A stretch of DNA of 64,000 bases from a bacterium. GTDB lineage: Bacteria > JAJVIF01. The stretch covers positions 895,353-959,352 of the forward strand of contig JAJVIF010000001.1 in NCBI GenBank assembly GCA_022072165.1. The letters are read 5' to 3'. The stretch's first letter is position 1. Each line of letters starts with the position of its first letter. The notes below the pieces were generated by a model, which was not told where the DNA came from, searched no databases, and was given only the letters and a program-made list of their open reading frames with translations. Positions 23,825 through 30,805 of this stretch are shown here, piece after piece. The translations under genes were made by a program, and so were the position numbers.

Positions 23825-24429
23825 CCGTGCTGGCCCCCACACACCAGGCTGTTCCAGGCTTCGACCGACCAGGGATGGATCGGCAGTCCCCGCTCCAGGA
23901 CGTATTCGAGTGTATGCGCCAGCACGGCCTGGTAGCCCCCATCCAGATCTTCCAGCACCAATGCCCGGAGCTGCGTGACTCCCGGGAACTCCCGGAGCGG
24001 CTCGACCGTATCGGCACAATAGAGGAGCCGGTCGAGCGTGGACATGACAGGTCCGGCGGTAGTGTGGTGGCTCACGGCGTGGAGTAATGCAGCATCAGCG
24101 ATACCAAAGTCCCGCTGTGCCAGAAAGGCGGACGTACGCTGATGCAGGATCCAGGGCTGTGCCAGCTCCACCTGATTCACCCCAATCCCGGCTTCCTGGG
24201 CTAGTCGCAGCTGTTCTTCGGGTGGTACATGCTTGGAGAGATCGTGGCACAGAGCCGCGAGTTCGACCACATCGGGGTCGAGGCCGAGGGATTGCACCGC
24301 ATTGACCTGCAGGGCGAAGTCCCTGACGCTCAGGATGTGCGCCAGCCGACTCTCCCGGACCCGTCGGGGGAGGTCGGCTTCGACCTGGGCGATGAGCGCC
24401 CGGGTATCCGTGGTCAACGGCCGTACCAT
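23821..24429 (-). CDS. yqeK: HD-domain hydrolase, YqeK family (Ap4A hydrolase)
   Basis: 202 residues. YqeK enzymes split diadenosine tetraphosphate symmetrically. The HD signature is seen in ALCHDLSKHVPPEEQL, with metal ligands in ILHQRTSAFLAQ and LLHAVSHHTTAGP, and YCADTVEP near the end. It is first in the yqeK, LCP, rsfS operon and is divergent from the reductase-like gene at 24500 across a 70-bp gap. Confidence 0.9.
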   Translation of the reverse strand: MVRPLTTDTRALIAQVEADLPRRVRESRLAHILSVRDFALQVNAVQSLGLDPDVVELAALCHDLSKHVPPEEQLRLAQEAGIGVNQVELAQPWILHQRTSAFLAQRDFGIADAALLHAVSHHTTAGPVMSTLDRLLYCADTVEPLREFPGVTQLRALVLEDLDGGYQAVLAHTLEYVLERGLPIHPWSVEAWNSLVCGGQHG

Positions 24430-24499: not shown

Positions 24500-26605
24500 A
24501 TGAGGGACCTGCCGCCGCCGACTGAGCCTCCTTTAGCAGCGCCGCGCCGGATTGCCCTGCTCTCCCTGGGGACGTCACAGCGAAACCAGACCTTTGAGAC
24601 CATCGTTCTGGGCCAGCGGTTTGTTTTAGAGCGGATTGGGACCGATGGCGACCGGAACCGCCTGCTGTCGCTGATCCAGGAACTAGATGGTCAGGTCGCC
24701 GCCATCGGGCTGGAAGACATCGATGCGTTTTATCTCGCCGGGAATCGGGTCTACACCCATCGGGATGCCATTCGATTCGTGGAAGCTGCCCGGAAAACGC
24801 CAGTGGTAGATGGGTTTGGACTGAAACATACGCTGGAGCGCTGGGCGGTCACCTTCGTGCACAACAGTGCCCCGGACCTTCTGGATGGGAAACGCGCGTT
24901 CGTCCTGAATGGTGTGGACCGCTATGGCATCGCCCAGGTCCTGCAGGAATTCACCCGGCAGGTGGTCTACGGCGATCTGCTTTTCACCACAAAACTCGAC
25001 CTGCCACTCCGGTCCCTCAAGGCGCTGGAATCTTATGCGCGCCTGATGTTCCCCCTGGTCTGCAATCTCCCCCTGGACCTGCTGCATCCCACCGGGAGCC
25101 GGTCCGCCACCCGTCGACCCCGTCACGCCCGGTGGTTTTCCTGGGCGGACATCATCGTGGGGGACTTCTCCCAGATTCGTCGTTATGCCCCATCGGACCT
25201 GTCCGGGAAGACGATCCTGACCAACACCCTATCGGTGGAGGAAGAAGCCGACCTCAAAGCCCGGGGAGCCATGATGGTGGTGACCACCACGCCTGACATG
25301 GGTGGGTACTCCCTGGGAACCCATGCGCTGGAAGCGATTTTTGTCGCCCTGCTGCAGGACCAGGGGTATGTCTGGGATCCCCGGAAAGCGGCCCGGCGGG
25401 ATTTCCGGGATGAGTATCTGAATCTGATTCTGGAGAGCGGCATTGAGCCCCGGATGCTGGAGCTGAATCCGCCCAAAACCAAAAAGAAACCGACGTTCGT
25501 CTTTGTCATTCACCCCCTGCGGGTCTCGGATGCGTTTCAGGTCAAGGCCTTCGCCTGGCTGCGCAATCTGCCGCCGAACCTGCTGGAGATGCTGCTGGCC
25601 AATGTCCCTCCGATGTTCATTTCGAAGGCGAAGGGGATCGTGGATGCCGACGGGAATGAGATCGATGGGTACTTCTATGCGCTGGTGATGACGCCAAAAA
25701 TGATGCTCGCCGCCGACCCCGAAGAGGTGTACAAGGGTCTTGTCCGGATTGCCGAAATGGCGCAGCGGCGGGGAGCCAAAGTGATGGGACTCGGTGCGTT
25801 CACCAGTGTGGTTGGCGATGCCGGGGTCTCTGTGGCCAAACGGTCGCCGATTCCGGTCACCAGTGGCAACTCCCTGACCATCTGGGCTTGTGTGGAGTCA
25901 GCCCGTCAGGCGACTCAAAAGATGGGCAAGCCCCTTAGCTCGTGCCGGGCCATGGTGGTCGGAGCGACCGGCTCCATTGGGAAGGCCGTGACGAAGGTCC
26001 TGGCTGAGGAGGTCGCCGAGCTATACGTGGTCTCCAAGCGGCCCGAAAAAGTCCTGGATTTCGTCAAGCAATTGCAGCAGCAGGGCGTCAAGGCTGAAGG
26101 AGGAACCTCTGTGGACCCCTTCATTGGTCGCTGCGACCTGATTGTCGCCACCACGACCGACCCGGATGGGGTGATCGATGTGATGAAACTGAAGCCGGGC
26201 TGTGTGGTGGTGGATGTCGCACGACCGCCCGATGTCAGTCCTGAAGAGGCCGGAAAACGCAACGACATACTGGTGATTGAGTCCGGGGAGATCCGGTGTC
26301 CTGGGAACCCCGACTGGGGAGTCAATCTGGGACTTCCAAAGGGGATCGCGTTCGCCTGTCTCACGGAAACCATGGTCCTGACATTCGAGAAGCGCTGGGA
26401 GAGCTATACGGTGGGACGCGACATCGATGTGGCCAAGGTCCAGGAAATCGGTGAGTTGGCCCAGCGACGCGGGTTTGTCCTGAGTGGCATCTATAGCTTT
26501 GGTGAACCGGTAAGCGATGAGGAAATCCAGCTCATCCGCGCCCGGGCAGAAGCGAATTTGCACCGGGCTGCCGCGGCTTCAGAAGCGGCAACGAACGCCG
26601 TGTAA
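24500..26605 (+). CDS. Fusion: quinate-dehydrogenase-like domain plus acyl-ACP-reductase-like domain
   Basis: 701 residues from the ATG at 24500; the frame extends upstream into yqeK, but coding quality there is poor. Residues 1-325 (GFGLKHTLERWAV, DLLFTTKLDLPLRSLKALE, VVTTTPDMGGYSLGTHALEA) resemble a family often labelled quinate 5-dehydrogenase, from memory. Residues 330-690 resemble cyanobacterial long-chain acyl-ACP reductase: VMGLGAFTSVVGDAGVSVAK, ITSGNS-like VTSGNSLTIWACVE, NAD(P) loop VVGATGSIGKAV (about 490), and AFACLTETMVLTFE, in which Cys620 matches the catalytic Cys. It may reduce fatty-acyl groups to aldehydes. No aldehyde deformylating oxygenase is adjacent. Confidence 0.72.
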   Translation: MRDLPPPTEPPLAAPRRIALLSLGTSQRNQTFETIVLGQRFVLERIGTDGDRNRLLSLIQELDGQVAAIGLEDIDAFYLAGNRVYTHRDAIRFVEAARKTPVVDGFGLKHTLERWAVTFVHNSAPDLLDGKRAFVLNGVDRYGIAQVLQEFTRQVVYGDLLFTTKLDLPLRSLKALESYARLMFPLVCNLPLDLLHPTGSRSATRRPRHARWFSWADIIVGDFSQIRRYAPSDLSGKTILTNTLSVEEEADLKARGAMMVVTTTPDMGGYSLGTHALEAIFVALLQDQGYVWDPRKAARRDFRDEYLNLILESGIEPRMLELNPPKTKKKPTFVFVIHPLRVSDAFQVKAFAWLRNLPPNLLEMLLANVPPMFISKAKGIVDADGNEIDGYFYALVMTPKMMLAADPEEVYKGLVRIAEMAQRRGAKVMGLGAFTSVVGDAGVSVAKRSPIPVTSGNSLTIWACVESARQATQKMGKPLSSCRAMVVGATGSIGKAVTKVLAEEVAELYVVSKRPEKVLDFVKQLQQQGVKAEGGTSVDPFIGRCDLIVATTTDPDGVIDVMKLKPGCVVVDVARPPDVSPEEAGKRNDILVIESGEIRCPGNPDWGVNLGLPKGIAFACLTETMVLTFEKRWESYTVGRDIDVAKVQEIGELAQRRGFVLSGIYSFGEPVSDEEIQLIRARAEANLHRAAAASEAATNAV

Positions 26606-26652
26606 CGCAGACGTCACACACGCTGTCGCGGATGCTGTGTACCATCGCGTCC

Positions 26653-28620
26653 ATGCGCGCTCTTCTGCTCCTCGGTCTCCTCATCGCCACCAGTCTGAGC
26701 CTGCCATCCCCGGCCTCAGCACAGGGATGGGGCACCCTGGGACTGGAAGAAGAGTCAAAGGATGCTCCTGCGAAGCCCGAACCCCGGGATGTCCTGCGGT
26801 TGGACCCACATCGGGTGGCCTCTCCTCAAGCGTTACTGGAAGCGCTCTGGCGCGTTGACTGGTGGATCACCAATTCCGCGCGACTCTTCACGCCCGATCA
26901 GGCCCGGGCTGAAATCCTCGAGGTCCATCTGGACCTCCTGGAGGACTGGCTGACCGGGCTCGATACCAGCCTGCTGCGCCAGGAAGTCCGGGAGACGCAT
27001 TTTGATCCGGCGATCACCTTTACCGAGCGGGTGTTTCTGACCTGGGACATCGTGCCCGACAACGCCATCCTCTGGCAGCAGACCCGGGATCAGGCACTCG
27101 ACGACCTCCGTCTGCAACGCCCGGCCCAGGCCCTGGCGCGGTACCGCAATTTTCGGGAAGCACACATTATTGGCGCGAACCCGGATCAGGTGCTGTTGTT
27201 TCTGCGACACATGGGAGCGGCCCGAGTACGGGCGGGCGGTCCCGCCTGGCGTCAGGAGTGCCTCGCGCTCTATCGACAGGAAGTCGCGGCCCTGCTCGGC
27301 GAGTACCCCCAGTTCCAGGGGATGAGCGAGTATGGGATGCGGTCCGGCATCCTGGAAACGCTGTATGAAGCCCCGACAATTCGGCACCGCGTCTGGCGGA
27401 TCCGGGCGCTGCTGGACCTCCTGACCGCCAGCGGTTCGGAGGGATACCAGACCCTGCTCGACTACCAGGCAATGGAGGGCGAGGCGGCTTTTCTCCCCTA
27501 CCCTGAAAAAGTTGCACTGGATGGCGGGGGGCTGGGATTGCCGCTGCTCCGGGAGTTGCTCGATGATCCGACCCTGCCGCCACATCGACGGAAAGGTCTC
27601 CTCGCAGTCGCTCTGGAACATGCCCAGCAGCCGGTGAGCAACAGCCTGACCCTCCCCCGGGACCTCCTCAAAGGGAAAGTCACTCTCTACCCCTATAGCC
27701 AGGATGACCGGGCATGGCTGGAAGCCGCGTTCCGCGATTTCCTGCTGGCCGGCGACATCGTCGGAGGCACGCTGGACCCGGTTTTCGTTGGCGACAGCGG
27801 ACCCAAGCTCCCGACCTCGCTGCGGCAGGCCGCGACGCTGTTGCTGGAGCTTGCTGATCCATTGGCGGAAGTCGACCGCCTGCTCGAATCTGGCGATCCT
27901 TCCGCACAGGCAGTTGCGCTGGCCACGCTTTCGCTGGCGCTGGAAGAAGGGAGCAGCTTCGCGCCGGATGAATGGCTGGGGACCGAAGAGGCCTACAACG
28001 AAGTGGTTACGCCCTTCCTGGAAGCGGGTGCGGTCCCGGAATTGCGGGACCTGGCGCTCCTCGTTCTGACTCAGCTGGCGCAGAGTCCGATGCCGCTGCA
28101 GGGGACCCGGGCGGTGCAGGCCACAACTCATATCGCCCTGTGCGAAGCCCTGGTGACCGATGCCCTGCCCGCCAGGGCGGACCTCGCCCGGGTCATGGCA
28201 CTTTCCTGGTATCGCCGGGGAATCGGCCTCGATTTGTTACGCGAGTATGTTCCTGCCATTCGGGACTATGCTGCGAAGGTCGATGCCACCCGCCTGAGTC
28301 TGGATGCGATCCTGGACCTTCTGGCGTTCGCCCGGGGGCTGGATGCGACTGCTGAGGTGGGGACAAGCGCAGCAGCACTGTTCCCGCCGGAACAGCACCT
28401 GGGGTTCATTGATCAGGCACTCGACCGGATGTCGCTCTTCCACCGGGTGGTGGGGCTGGAGGAAGTGATGGCTGACCTCGAGCTGCTGTTGCAGCAGGGG
28501 ATGCAGCTTTCGCCCGCCACGAGTAAAGGGCTTATCGGGCTGCTGAACTATCGGGAAAGTCTGATGATTCATCCCGACGTCGCGCTGGCCATGGAAGCCA
28601 TGCTGGCGGAAGCGCTCTGA
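26653..28620 (+). CDS. Secreted protein of unknown function
   Basis: 655 residues from the ATG at 26653, chosen because it begins a clean signal peptide (MRALLLLGLLIATSLSLPS, cut near PASAQ); an ATG at 26632 is also in frame. The mature part is largely helical and Leu-rich, with segments suggesting repeated helical hairpins such as LADPLAEVDRLLESGDPSAQ and LRDLALLVLTQLAQSPMPL. I recognise no enzyme motif. It lies 47 nt after the reductase-like fusion and 41 nt before rmlB. Real on codon periodicity and signal peptide. Confidence 0.75.
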   Translation: MRALLLLGLLIATSLSLPSPASAQGWGTLGLEEESKDAPAKPEPRDVLRLDPHRVASPQALLEALWRVDWWITNSARLFTPDQARAEILEVHLDLLEDWLTGLDTSLLRQEVRETHFDPAITFTERVFLTWDIVPDNAILWQQTRDQALDDLRLQRPAQALARYRNFREAHIIGANPDQVLLFLRHMGAARVRAGGPAWRQECLALYRQEVAALLGEYPQFQGMSEYGMRSGILETLYEAPTIRHRVWRIRALLDLLTASGSEGYQTLLDYQAMEGEAAFLPYPEKVALDGGGLGLPLLRELLDDPTLPPHRRKGLLAVALEHAQQPVSNSLTLPRDLLKGKVTLYPYSQDDRAWLEAAFRDFLLAGDIVGGTLDPVFVGDSGPKLPTSLRQAATLLLELADPLAEVDRLLESGDPSAQAVALATLSLALEEGSSFAPDEWLGTEEAYNEVVTPFLEAGAVPELRDLALLVLTQLAQSPMPLQGTRAVQATTHIALCEALVTDALPARADLARVMALSWYRRGIGLDLLREYVPAIRDYAAKVDATRLSLDAILDLLAFARGLDATAEVGTSAAALFPPEQHLGFIDQALDRMSLFHRVVGLEEVMADLELLLQQGMQLSPATSKGLIGLLNYRESLMIHPDVALAMEAMLAEAL

Positions 28621-28661: not shown

Positions 28662-29711
28662 ATGAACAGCACGACACCTGCAGGCCGCAAAAAGATCCTG
28701 GTCACAGGAGGCGCGGGCTTTATCGGCTCGAATTTCGTCCATCTGTTGGTGGGCGACCATCCCGACTGGGAAGTGGTGGTGCTCGACAAGCTCACCTACG
28801 CCGGCAACCTGGGGAACTTCCCGCCGGGATTCTGGGATCGCCCCGGGGTGTCTTTTGTGCAGGGCGACATCTGCGACGCCGCACTGGTCGCCGAAGTGAT
28901 GAAAGATTGCACCTATGTGGTGCACTTTGCCGCAGAAACGCATGTGGACCGCTCGATTGTCGATGCCGGGTCGTTCATCGAGACCGATGTGAAGGGGACC
29001 TGGGTCCTGCTGGAAGCGGCCCGAAAGAATCAGGCCCTGGAGCGGTTCGTGCACATTTCCACCGACGAAGTCTATGGCGAAGCGCCGGGACGTCCGAATG
29101 TGGAGGGAGACGATCTGCGCCCGAAGTCGCCCTATGCCGCCAGTAAGGCTGGCGCTGATCGCCTGGCCTTCAGCTACTTCACCACCTATGGGCTGCCGGT
29201 AGTGATCTCCCGCTGCTCCAACAATTTCGGGCCGTTCCAGTACCCTGAGAAGTTGATTCCCCTCTTTGTCACCAATGCACTGGAGGACAAACCGCTCCCA
29301 ATTTACGGGACCGGCAAGAATACCCGCGACTGGATCTATGTCACCGATCACTGTGACGCCATCCTGACCATGCTCAAAGCCCCCGGGGTCGATGGCGAGG
29401 TCTTCAATGTCTCCGCTGCGACCGAGCACTCGGTGCTCGACATCACCGACATCATCCTGGAAACTCTGGGCAAGCCCAAGGATCTGATCCGGTATGTCGA
29501 TGACCGCCCAGGACATGTCGAACGTCACGCGGTCTCCGCCCGAAAGCTCTACGACCAGACCGGCTGGATGCCGAACCGTGACTTCAAGGTCGCATTAACC
29601 GACACGGTCCGGTGGTACCAGGAAAATGCCGAATGGTGGCAGGCCCTGAAGGCAAAGAGCGCGGAGTATCAGCGCTGGATCCAGCAGCAGTATGGAGCCG
29701 CGGTTCAGTGA
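28662..29711 (+). CDS. rmlB: dTDP-glucose 4,6-dehydratase
   Basis: 349 residues. RmlB converts dTDP-glucose to dTDP-4-keto-6-deoxyglucose for deoxysugars such as rhamnose. The NAD loop GGAGFIGS (16-23), the dehydratase Asp-Glu pair in HISTDEVYGE, and the YxxxK pair (Y158, K162 in SPYAASKAGADR) are intact. WIYVTDHCDAI and the C-terminal region DRPGHVERHAVSARKL are also typical. The stop codon overlaps the GTG start of the next gene. No rmlA, C or D is in the window. Confidence 0.92.
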   Translation: MNSTTPAGRKKILVTGGAGFIGSNFVHLLVGDHPDWEVVVLDKLTYAGNLGNFPPGFWDRPGVSFVQGDICDAALVAEVMKDCTYVVHFAAETHVDRSIVDAGSFIETDVKGTWVLLEAARKNQALERFVHISTDEVYGEAPGRPNVEGDDLRPKSPYAASKAGADRLAFSYFTTYGLPVVISRCSNNFGPFQYPEKLIPLFVTNALEDKPLPIYGTGKNTRDWIYVTDHCDAILTMLKAPGVDGEVFNVSAATEHSVLDITDIILETLGKPKDLIRYVDDRPGHVERHAVSARKLYDQTGWMPNRDFKVALTDTVRWYQENAEWWQALKAKSAEYQRWIQQQYGAAVQ

Positions 29712-30805
29712 TCGCCCTGCTGCATCGTGGCGCAGCGGTTCTGAGTCTGCTCTGGCTGTGTGCCGCGCTGACCGGTTGCGGCGGACGTCCCCAGTCGACC
29801 AGTCCGGATGCTTTGCGGCGCCAGGCGAAACAGGTCTCCCTCCCCCTGTCGACAACACTCGACCTCTTTAGCCGGGGGGCCCCCCTCGAGGACTGGCAGA
29901 TCGCGTTCCAGGCGACCCCGGACGACATGGAACTGTTCGAAGCGTTCGCGTATCGCCAGCTCTTACGGGGAGTCGCAGACAGCAACGTGGAGGAGGCCCT
30001 GCGCCGAGTCGCGGCCGCCCGGATGGACGATCCCTTCGTGCTCTTCCTGCAGGTCTACCAGATGCAGCAAAGTGCGCTGAATGTCCGTGCCGATCAAAAA
30101 ACCAGACTGGAGACTGTCGCCGCCTACGCCCGGGACACCCTCCAGAAGGCCCAGCAACGGGATCCCGGCAACGCCTTCTACCCCTATATGGAAGCGACCT
30201 TCTGGATGGTCAAGGGCGAGATGAACAACGCCTGGCTCGCTCTGGAACAGGGGAACAAGGCGACAGAGTTTCATCACCCCTGCGCCGCTCCACTCCCCCG
30301 TGACCTCCGAAAGCTGGAAGGGCTGGTCCAGGCTTTGGGACCACACCTCGGCATCTACTTTCAGACGACGCCCCGATTTTTTCTGACGGAGTTTCACAAG
30401 CAACTCCGTTCCGCCGGAAACTCCTACGGCAAGGACCCGGTTATCAGCCATCGGATTCTGCAGGCAGGGCGACGTCAGCTGGAGATGCTGCCCTTTGATC
30501 TCGTGGCGTATCAGGGAGCGCTGGGGCTGAACAAGGGCTTGTGGGAGCAGCAGCAGCAGGCTGGGAACGCCGGCGCAGCTGAGGTCCTGACCGCTCTGGC
30601 GGCATTCGAGAAGCCACTGAAGGAAGTCGCCACTGCCACGGATCAGGCATCGCGAAAGCTCAAGTCCGCTACGGAAGATCCGCAGTTGCAGTACGGCGCC
30701 GAGATGCTGGCCCTGACCCTGGATTTCCAGGCCAACACCGCCAGTCTGCACCGGGCGTTGCTCAACGCCATTGACCAGCAGCTACCTGCCGCTCCCGGCA
30801 GTTAG
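29708..30805 (+). CDS. Lipoprotein of unknown function
   Basis: 365 residues from a GTG at 29708 that overlaps the rmlB stop (GTGA). The start is chosen because it produces a lipoprotein signal: ALLHRGAAVLSLLWLCAALTGC, split here as HRGAAVLSLLWLC and AALTGC. The mature protein is helical, with a TPR-like feel around DTLQKAQQRDPGNAFYPYME. No known domain is recognised. Translationally coupled to rmlB, so a link to envelope glycans is possible but unproven. Confidence 0.72.
   Translation: MIALLHRGAAVLSLLWLCAALTGCGGRPQSTSPDALRRQAKQVSLPLSTTLDLFSRGAPLEDWQIAFQATPDDMELFEAFAYRQLLRGVADSNVEEALRRVAAARMDDPFVLFLQVYQMQQSALNVRADQKTRLETVAAYARDTLQKAQQRDPGNAFYPYMEATFWMVKGEMNNAWLALEQGNKATEFHHPCAAPLPRDLRKLEGLVQALGPHLGIYFQTTPRFFLTEFHKQLRSAGNSYGKDPVISHRILQAGRRQLEMLPFDLVAYQGALGLNKGLWEQQQQAGNAGAAEVLTALAAFEKPLKEVATATDQASRKLKSATEDPQLQYGAEMLALTLDFQANTASLHRALLNAIDQQLPAAPGS

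Follow-up and report, generated by a model that had tools for sequence, protein, structure and literature searches.

We propose that the gene at 24500..26605 (+) of the window, the whole 64,000-nucleotide stretch of DNA analyzed here, encodes a fused two-component acyl-thioester reductase that makes long-chain aldehydes for lipids, a reading to which we assign a probability of roughly 55%. Its 701-aa product joins an N-terminal domain of an uncatalogued family (hereafter N; aa 16-323, 24545..25468, +), which would act as the non-catalytic partner, to a C-terminal domain (hereafter R; aa 332-690, 25493..26569, +) assigned by profiles, PDB matches and fold to the AAR/PigE superfamily of acyl-thioester reductases. 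The N-R couple recurs across many phyla, and no description of it was found in those portions of the literature that were searched; taken together, the evidence set out below is pointing to an undescribed two-part fatty-aldehyde system for lipids.

The gene is a single uninterrupted frame from an ATG start to its stop codon, which is included in the above coordinates; thus, the 701-aa chain of the original prediction stands. A longer alternative frame would open with a TTG at 24233; as a divergent ORF starts at 24429 (-) and relatives start near residue 16, 24500 is a reasonable putative start. This divergent ORF is followed by two further ORFs on the same strand, and from their sequences we take the three to be YqeK-, LytR/Cps- and RsfS-like. 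Downstream, the next gene (26632-28620, 662 aa) has no match in Pfam, and is succeeded by a NAD-dependent epimerase/dehydratase (Pfam), presumably of the dTDP-glucose-dehydratase kind. A predicted 397-aa protein further on (29612-30805) is likewise without a Pfam match. Among the genes adjoining the N-R gene we recognized neither a lipid gene nor a partner gene. The source genome (3.26 Mb, 99.1% complete) carries a second, lone N gene (L162:9926-10924; G000:C1 about 1639068-1640066), 40% identical to the N half of the window. Lone N genes adjoin unrelated genes: this one lies directly after a DUF3084 gene, and DUF3084 followed by N recurs in two other genomes, G001 (L167) and G003 (L181).

On the catalytic side, the closest named relative of R by score is the reductase domain of PigE/TamH (NCBIfam NF053554; residues 374-692, 3.2e-62), scoring 211 bits where the cut-off is 850, with a match confined to positions 47-366 of the 837 in the profile. 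The AcACP_reductase/AAR profile (TIGR04058) matches residues 368-659 (3.4e-27) at 95.7 bits (cut-off 449.7). As these scores lie far under both equivalog cut-offs, R is, on profile evidence, a new and separate subfamily of AAR/PigE-type reductases. Sequence matches in the PDB agree: 4ppm (1.4e-36, with the Cys conserved in the alignment) and 6jzq (1.8e-20), the former of which is titled Aminotransferase and is taken by us, from the match, to be of the PigE type. The AlphaFold2 model of the whole chain (85 rows; pLDDT 92.4, pTM 0.75) has an R domain that matches AAR with a Foldseek TM of 0.82 of the target and aligns with 6jzq_D, a 339-residue AAR chain, over 325 residues (VIA-align Z 35.0, rmsd 2.7).

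The residues expected of such an enzyme are also in place. The dinucleotide loop GATGSIG (aa 488-494; 25961..25981, +) retains Gly488 and Gly491 in 81/81 aligned relatives and Gly494 in 79/81. Cys620 (26357..26359, +), within FACLTETMV, is present in all 81 and is placed by the HMMER alignment to 6jzq opposite Cys294 of AAR, which, according to PMC7089970, forms the acyl-enzyme that is then reduced to aldehyde. A basic residue occurs at position 517 in 79/81 relatives and at position 640 in 78/81; counted by hand on the R-6jzq alignment, Lys517 and Arg640 stand opposite Arg193 and Arg314, reported in PMC7089970 to serve the NADPH phosphate. For PigE too, thioester reduction is reported (PMC8341465). 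Given this homology to AAR and PigE, the fold, the conserved Cys620 and loop and the basic residues, R is very likely an acyl-thioester reductase.

R thus shares with the AARs (TIGR04058; 6jzq/6jzu/6jzy/6jzz) the three-domain fold, the dinucleotide loop, the catalytic-type Cys and an Arg after the T-V/L-G motif, and differs from them in its score far beneath the AAR cut-off, in the additional N domain and in coming from a genome without ADO. PigE/TamH (4ppm) is likewise a natural fusion; in contrast, a Pfam scan finds no aminotransferase in the window's chain, where N is the fused partner. The carmabin NRPS TAD (9e4s/9e4u/9e4x/9e50/9e56) has the same fold as R (Z 34.7) and supplies the second-best structural match of N, but is part of an NRPS assembly line and reaches only 2e-07 by sequence. 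These last comparisons raise the alternative that the substrate of R is not a long-chain acyl group but a short polyketide or peptide thioester, as for PigE and the carmabin TAD, or a glutamyl-type ester: PigE rather than AAR is the best named profile of R, the NRPS TAD is as close to it in fold as AAR, and both equivalog cut-offs are far from being reached. We nevertheless consider this unlikely, for no NRPS/PKS genes were recognized among the conserved neighbor clusters scanned, of which part of the neighbors were annotated, and the neighbors and fusion partners include PlsC-like, SCP2, PlsY and START-like lipid-transport proteins.

The assignment of the C-terminal half as an AAR-like reductase with a catalytic-type Cys and cofactor loop is therefore well supported, and a domain search of each half leads R to the PigE and AAR profiles and N to no Pfam family. 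What does not hold is the description of the N-terminal half as quinate-dehydrogenase-like: the shikimate/quinate 5-dehydrogenase family (PF01488) matches the cofactor-binding middle of R (residues 472-584; 37.9 bits, cut-off 24.3), and none of 80 N members matches it, or any other Pfam family, at E 0.01. NCBIfam yields a single chance-level match among the 80, a PDB search with a profile built from them gives nothing convincing, and a search of a viral structure library with N returns no match at E <=0.001. That the chain has two distinct halves is correct, but the N-terminal one has an AAR-like predicted fold of its own. Modeled alone (pLDDT 94.3, pTM 0.91), N places 6jzq_C at the top of 1000 re-aligned PDB chains (251 residues aligned, rmsd 4.3), with a Z of 13.6 that is to be read against the Z of 14.6 which modeled R scores with malic enzyme, so that values of 13-14 are possible between distant Rossmann dehydrogenases. 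The nine best of the 1000 chains are all AAR or carmabin TAD (Z 11.3-13.6), with glutamate dehydrogenase next at 10.4.

Direct comparison of N with R is less telling. The profile-profile alignment is collinear, with an hhalign probability of 0.2% and a score not above that of control profiles; the best hmmsearch match has an E of 3.6, which is not significant, and the group-wise shift is small. Since these sequence comparisons are not significant, the descent of N from an AAR-like ancestor rests on the predicted fold, and we infer common descent of N and R at that level; together with the Z values attainable among distant Rossmann dehydrogenases, this counts against our preferred explanation. 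In the hhalign alignment, which is not statistically significant, the N stretch NGVDRYG (aa 137-143; 24908..24928, +) falls opposite GATGSIG with the canonical glycines lost, and the family as a whole reads S/P-G-x-D/E/N-R/H-x-G opposite the GxxGxxG loop. The same weak alignment sets the conserved Glu278 of N opposite Glu623 of R; this puts His275 (25322..25324, +), three residues before that Glu, at the place of Cys620. The position is mostly N/D/A in the relatives and, thus placed, holds no Cys in any of the 80 rows; Cys is found in more than 8 of the 80 rows at columns 48 (17) and 137 (11) only. N is therefore best described, at the level of the model, as an uncatalogued, divergent and Cys-less family with an AAR-like fold.

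At the same time, N has strongly conserved positions of its own (invariant G47, G105, D159, G221 and P231; near-invariant polar D63, D104, E113, R114, D222, K237, R255 and E278), and hence is probably under selection to bind something. These polar residues are more than a bare scaffold needs, which again weighs against a purely non-catalytic partner. They could instead indicate a truly bifunctional protein, in which N would be an enzyme in its own right and might, for instance, convert the aldehyde from R, so that an acyl thioester becomes an alcohol or other product in two steps. The near-invariant polar residues with the invariant D159, the confident dehydrogenase-like predicted fold and the direct fusion to an aldehyde-forming domain would all suit such an enzyme, whereas the weakly aligned loop and Cys sites have lost their usual residues and no family or solved relative of N names an activity. 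Since the customary cofactor loop and Cys are missing from N, the bifunctional enzyme of the original prediction is not the likeliest reading, and we keep it as a tentative alternative.

With one genome scanned per species, at least 567 related loci came to light, and the best 80 of them were analyzed: N and R are fused in 50 and encoded by adjacent same-strand genes, N then R, in 30. Being drawn from the best 80 of at least 567, this ratio is no census; yet its presence in 50 of the 80 nearest loci, all in other genomes, shows that the fusion is neither an assembly oddity nor unique to one genome. The fused loci comprise 47 from Chloroflexota, one from a Planctomycetota-labelled MAG, one from an Acidobacteriota-labelled MAG and one other, and the split ones 19 from Bacillota, seven from Armatimonadota, two from Abditibacteriota, one from a Pseudomonadota-labelled MAG and one other; the separate neighboring genes to be looked for in other phyla thus exist in Bacillota and Armatimonadota. 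The junction of the halves (aa 324-331; 25469..25492, +) corresponds to the intergenic gap of the split pairs, which is 3-159 bp with a median of 13.5 across the 30 loci. Variants of the arrangement include a genome with the order reversed to R then N (G129) and another with two tandem N genes preceding R and ORFs reading as GreA and LysS (G184; L165:6033-10894).

The domain alignments cover the window with 79 of the 80 loci (A3; L052 left out) and the window with every fused locus (50) and 17 of the 30 split pairs (A4). In a quick maximum-likelihood tree of R, a fully supported branch (100%) has all 54 fused rows on one side, and the fused/split label requires one change, as against an average of 27.8 in shuffles (0/500 as low). 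This fits a single origin of the fusion; the tree carries long-branch warnings and gain is not distinguishable from loss on it. It has 98 rows, nine of them without a state; they include 17 hand-chosen from 42 extra R sequences, with duplicates and PlsY- or aminotransferase-fused R left out. The nearest named records are the MAG bacterium AUK107 and the Planctomycetota-labelled MAG; the window's protein groups with both, and its R is 59% identical to that of AUK107. A MAG labelled Acetobacteraceae (L070) shows the gene order of the Bacillota type (dusB, N, R, lysS), and the tree places it with Bacillota as well; its label or contig may be wrong.

Across 289 genomes, R occurs in 36 and N in 27, the latter spanning 19 family-level groups; every one of the 27 genomes with N also has R, as against nine of the 262 others (Fisher value 1e-30, which overstates independence as the genomes are related). 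In the phylum of G063, taken here to be Chloroflexota since G204, which shares its genus code, clusters with Oscillochloris in the tree, there are matches in 25/121 genomes; both parts are present in 24 of these, fused in 13 and apart in 11. A plasmid collection contained no N; the five R-like places in it bear the annotation aminotransferase class III or hypothetical. The view that AAR-type reductases are rarely seen outside cyanobacteria is not borne out, as just two of the 36 genomes with the superfamily have ADO (PF11266) above cut-off. The resemblance of R to AAR in sequence and fold could suggest a cyanobacterial-type alkane pathway of AAR plus ADO, but we rejected this as highly improbable: neither the source genome nor any of the 27 N genomes has a match to PF11266, and of the three genomes in the 289 with ADO above cut-off two, G050 and G194, have it beside an AAR-like gene, and none of the three has N. 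Thus, the neighbor of the reductase is ADO in cyanobacterial-type genomes and elsewhere often N. A canonical WS/DGAT wax synthase as partner was also rejected, being above cut-off in 16/289 genomes and 0/27 with N; a PlsC-type wax synthase is still compatible. Taken alone, these absences among N genomes are not significant (Fisher p 0.38 for WS, 1.0 for ADO).

Gene neighborhoods offer some clues to the fate of the product. The 19 Bacillota loci display the order coaX-dusB-HTH-N-R-greA-lysS (within 5 kb: HTH 16, lysS 15, dusB 14, coaX 12, greA 11); this context shows that N and R travel together, is silent on lipids and says little on function. A conserved 321-aa protein (e.g., L033:8415-9380) lies between dusB and the HTH gene in seven Bacillota loci and matches nothing in Pfam or NCBIfam. 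Among the 47 loci from Chloroflexota, the fusion has a PlsC-like acyltransferase, SCP2 or NAD-epimerase in its vicinity in 13, and within 5 kb there is an alpha/beta hydrolase in 10, an Fe-ADH in 8 and a PHB_acc_N regulator in 4. Elsewhere, class III aminotransferases are drawn in: G281 (L174:5698-9435) has N, such an aminotransferase, a START-like lipid-transport protein and R, in an operon that is a split PigE-like system plus N; G144 has the order N, aminotransferase, R; in G093 an aminotransferase precedes N; and in G049 a class III aminotransferase is fused to R. The PlsC/SCP2/epimerase neighbors, the PlsY-R and aminotransferase-R fusions and the N-aminotransferase-R operons support the lipid reading; the lone N beside unrelated genes, and the Bacillota and window loci without lipid genes, count against it.

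Briefly, we advance the following mechanism for a fused two-component reductase. R would bind a long-chain acyl-ACP or acyl-CoA, take the acyl group onto Cys620 and reduce it with NAD(P)H to the aldehyde, like cyanobacterial AAR and PigE; this activity we infer from strong homology. N, Cys-less and AAR-like in predicted fold, might hold, regulate or hand on the product of R, and may position the acyl group; it occupies the place that ADO has in cyanobacteria; this partner role is suggested by co-occurrence and fold. The aldehyde would then enter lipids: in some lineages class III aminotransferases would turn it into an alkylamine, and in Chloroflexota it would end up in an alcohol or ester lipid.

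One lineage hints at a more specific role. In the phylum of G022, both an N and an R match are present in 61/61 genomes; we identify it as Deinococcus-Thermus since G420, from the same phylum set, shares 96% identity with plasmid pTT27 of Thermus thermophilus HB8 along 5.5 kb. In the Thermus-type genomes G022 and G420, a PlsY-type acyltransferase is fused to R (L163:4365-6026; L190:7063-8724), with the Cys in PACLAETM. A third genome, G435, has a 605-aa R frame that keeps the Cys motif, with no PlsY similarity detected at the threshold used; R frames in the remaining genomes of the 61 are 448-1109 aa long. No aminotransferase adjoins N or R in the Thermus-type genomes examined. The lipids of T. 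thermophilus and D. radiodurans contain a glyceroyl-alkylamine (PMC3398001), and the enzymes for the third chain of these phosphoglycolipids are described as unidentified in PMC9636437. Reduction of an acyl group and subsequent transamination would yield such an alkylamine. Hence, we offer, as a speculative extension, that N-R might be an ancient two-subunit fatty-acyl reductase of many phyla, with a catalytic AAR-like subunit and an AAR-fold pseudoenzyme, that in Deinococcus-Thermus it might supply the aldehyde precursor of the phosphoglycolipid alkylamine chain, and that the fused form of the window's lineage and Chloroflexota might contribute to a similar amine, alcohol or ether lipid.

In broader terms, these findings connect an uncatalogued family, N, with aldehyde-forming reductases of a known kind in 19 of the family-level groups sampled. 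In Chloroflexota, with the sampled N genomes being without WS/DGAT, N-R could provide the aldehyde or alcohol of neutral lipids and, more generally, it is a concrete candidate for fatty-aldehyde formation in bacteria other than cyanobacteria.
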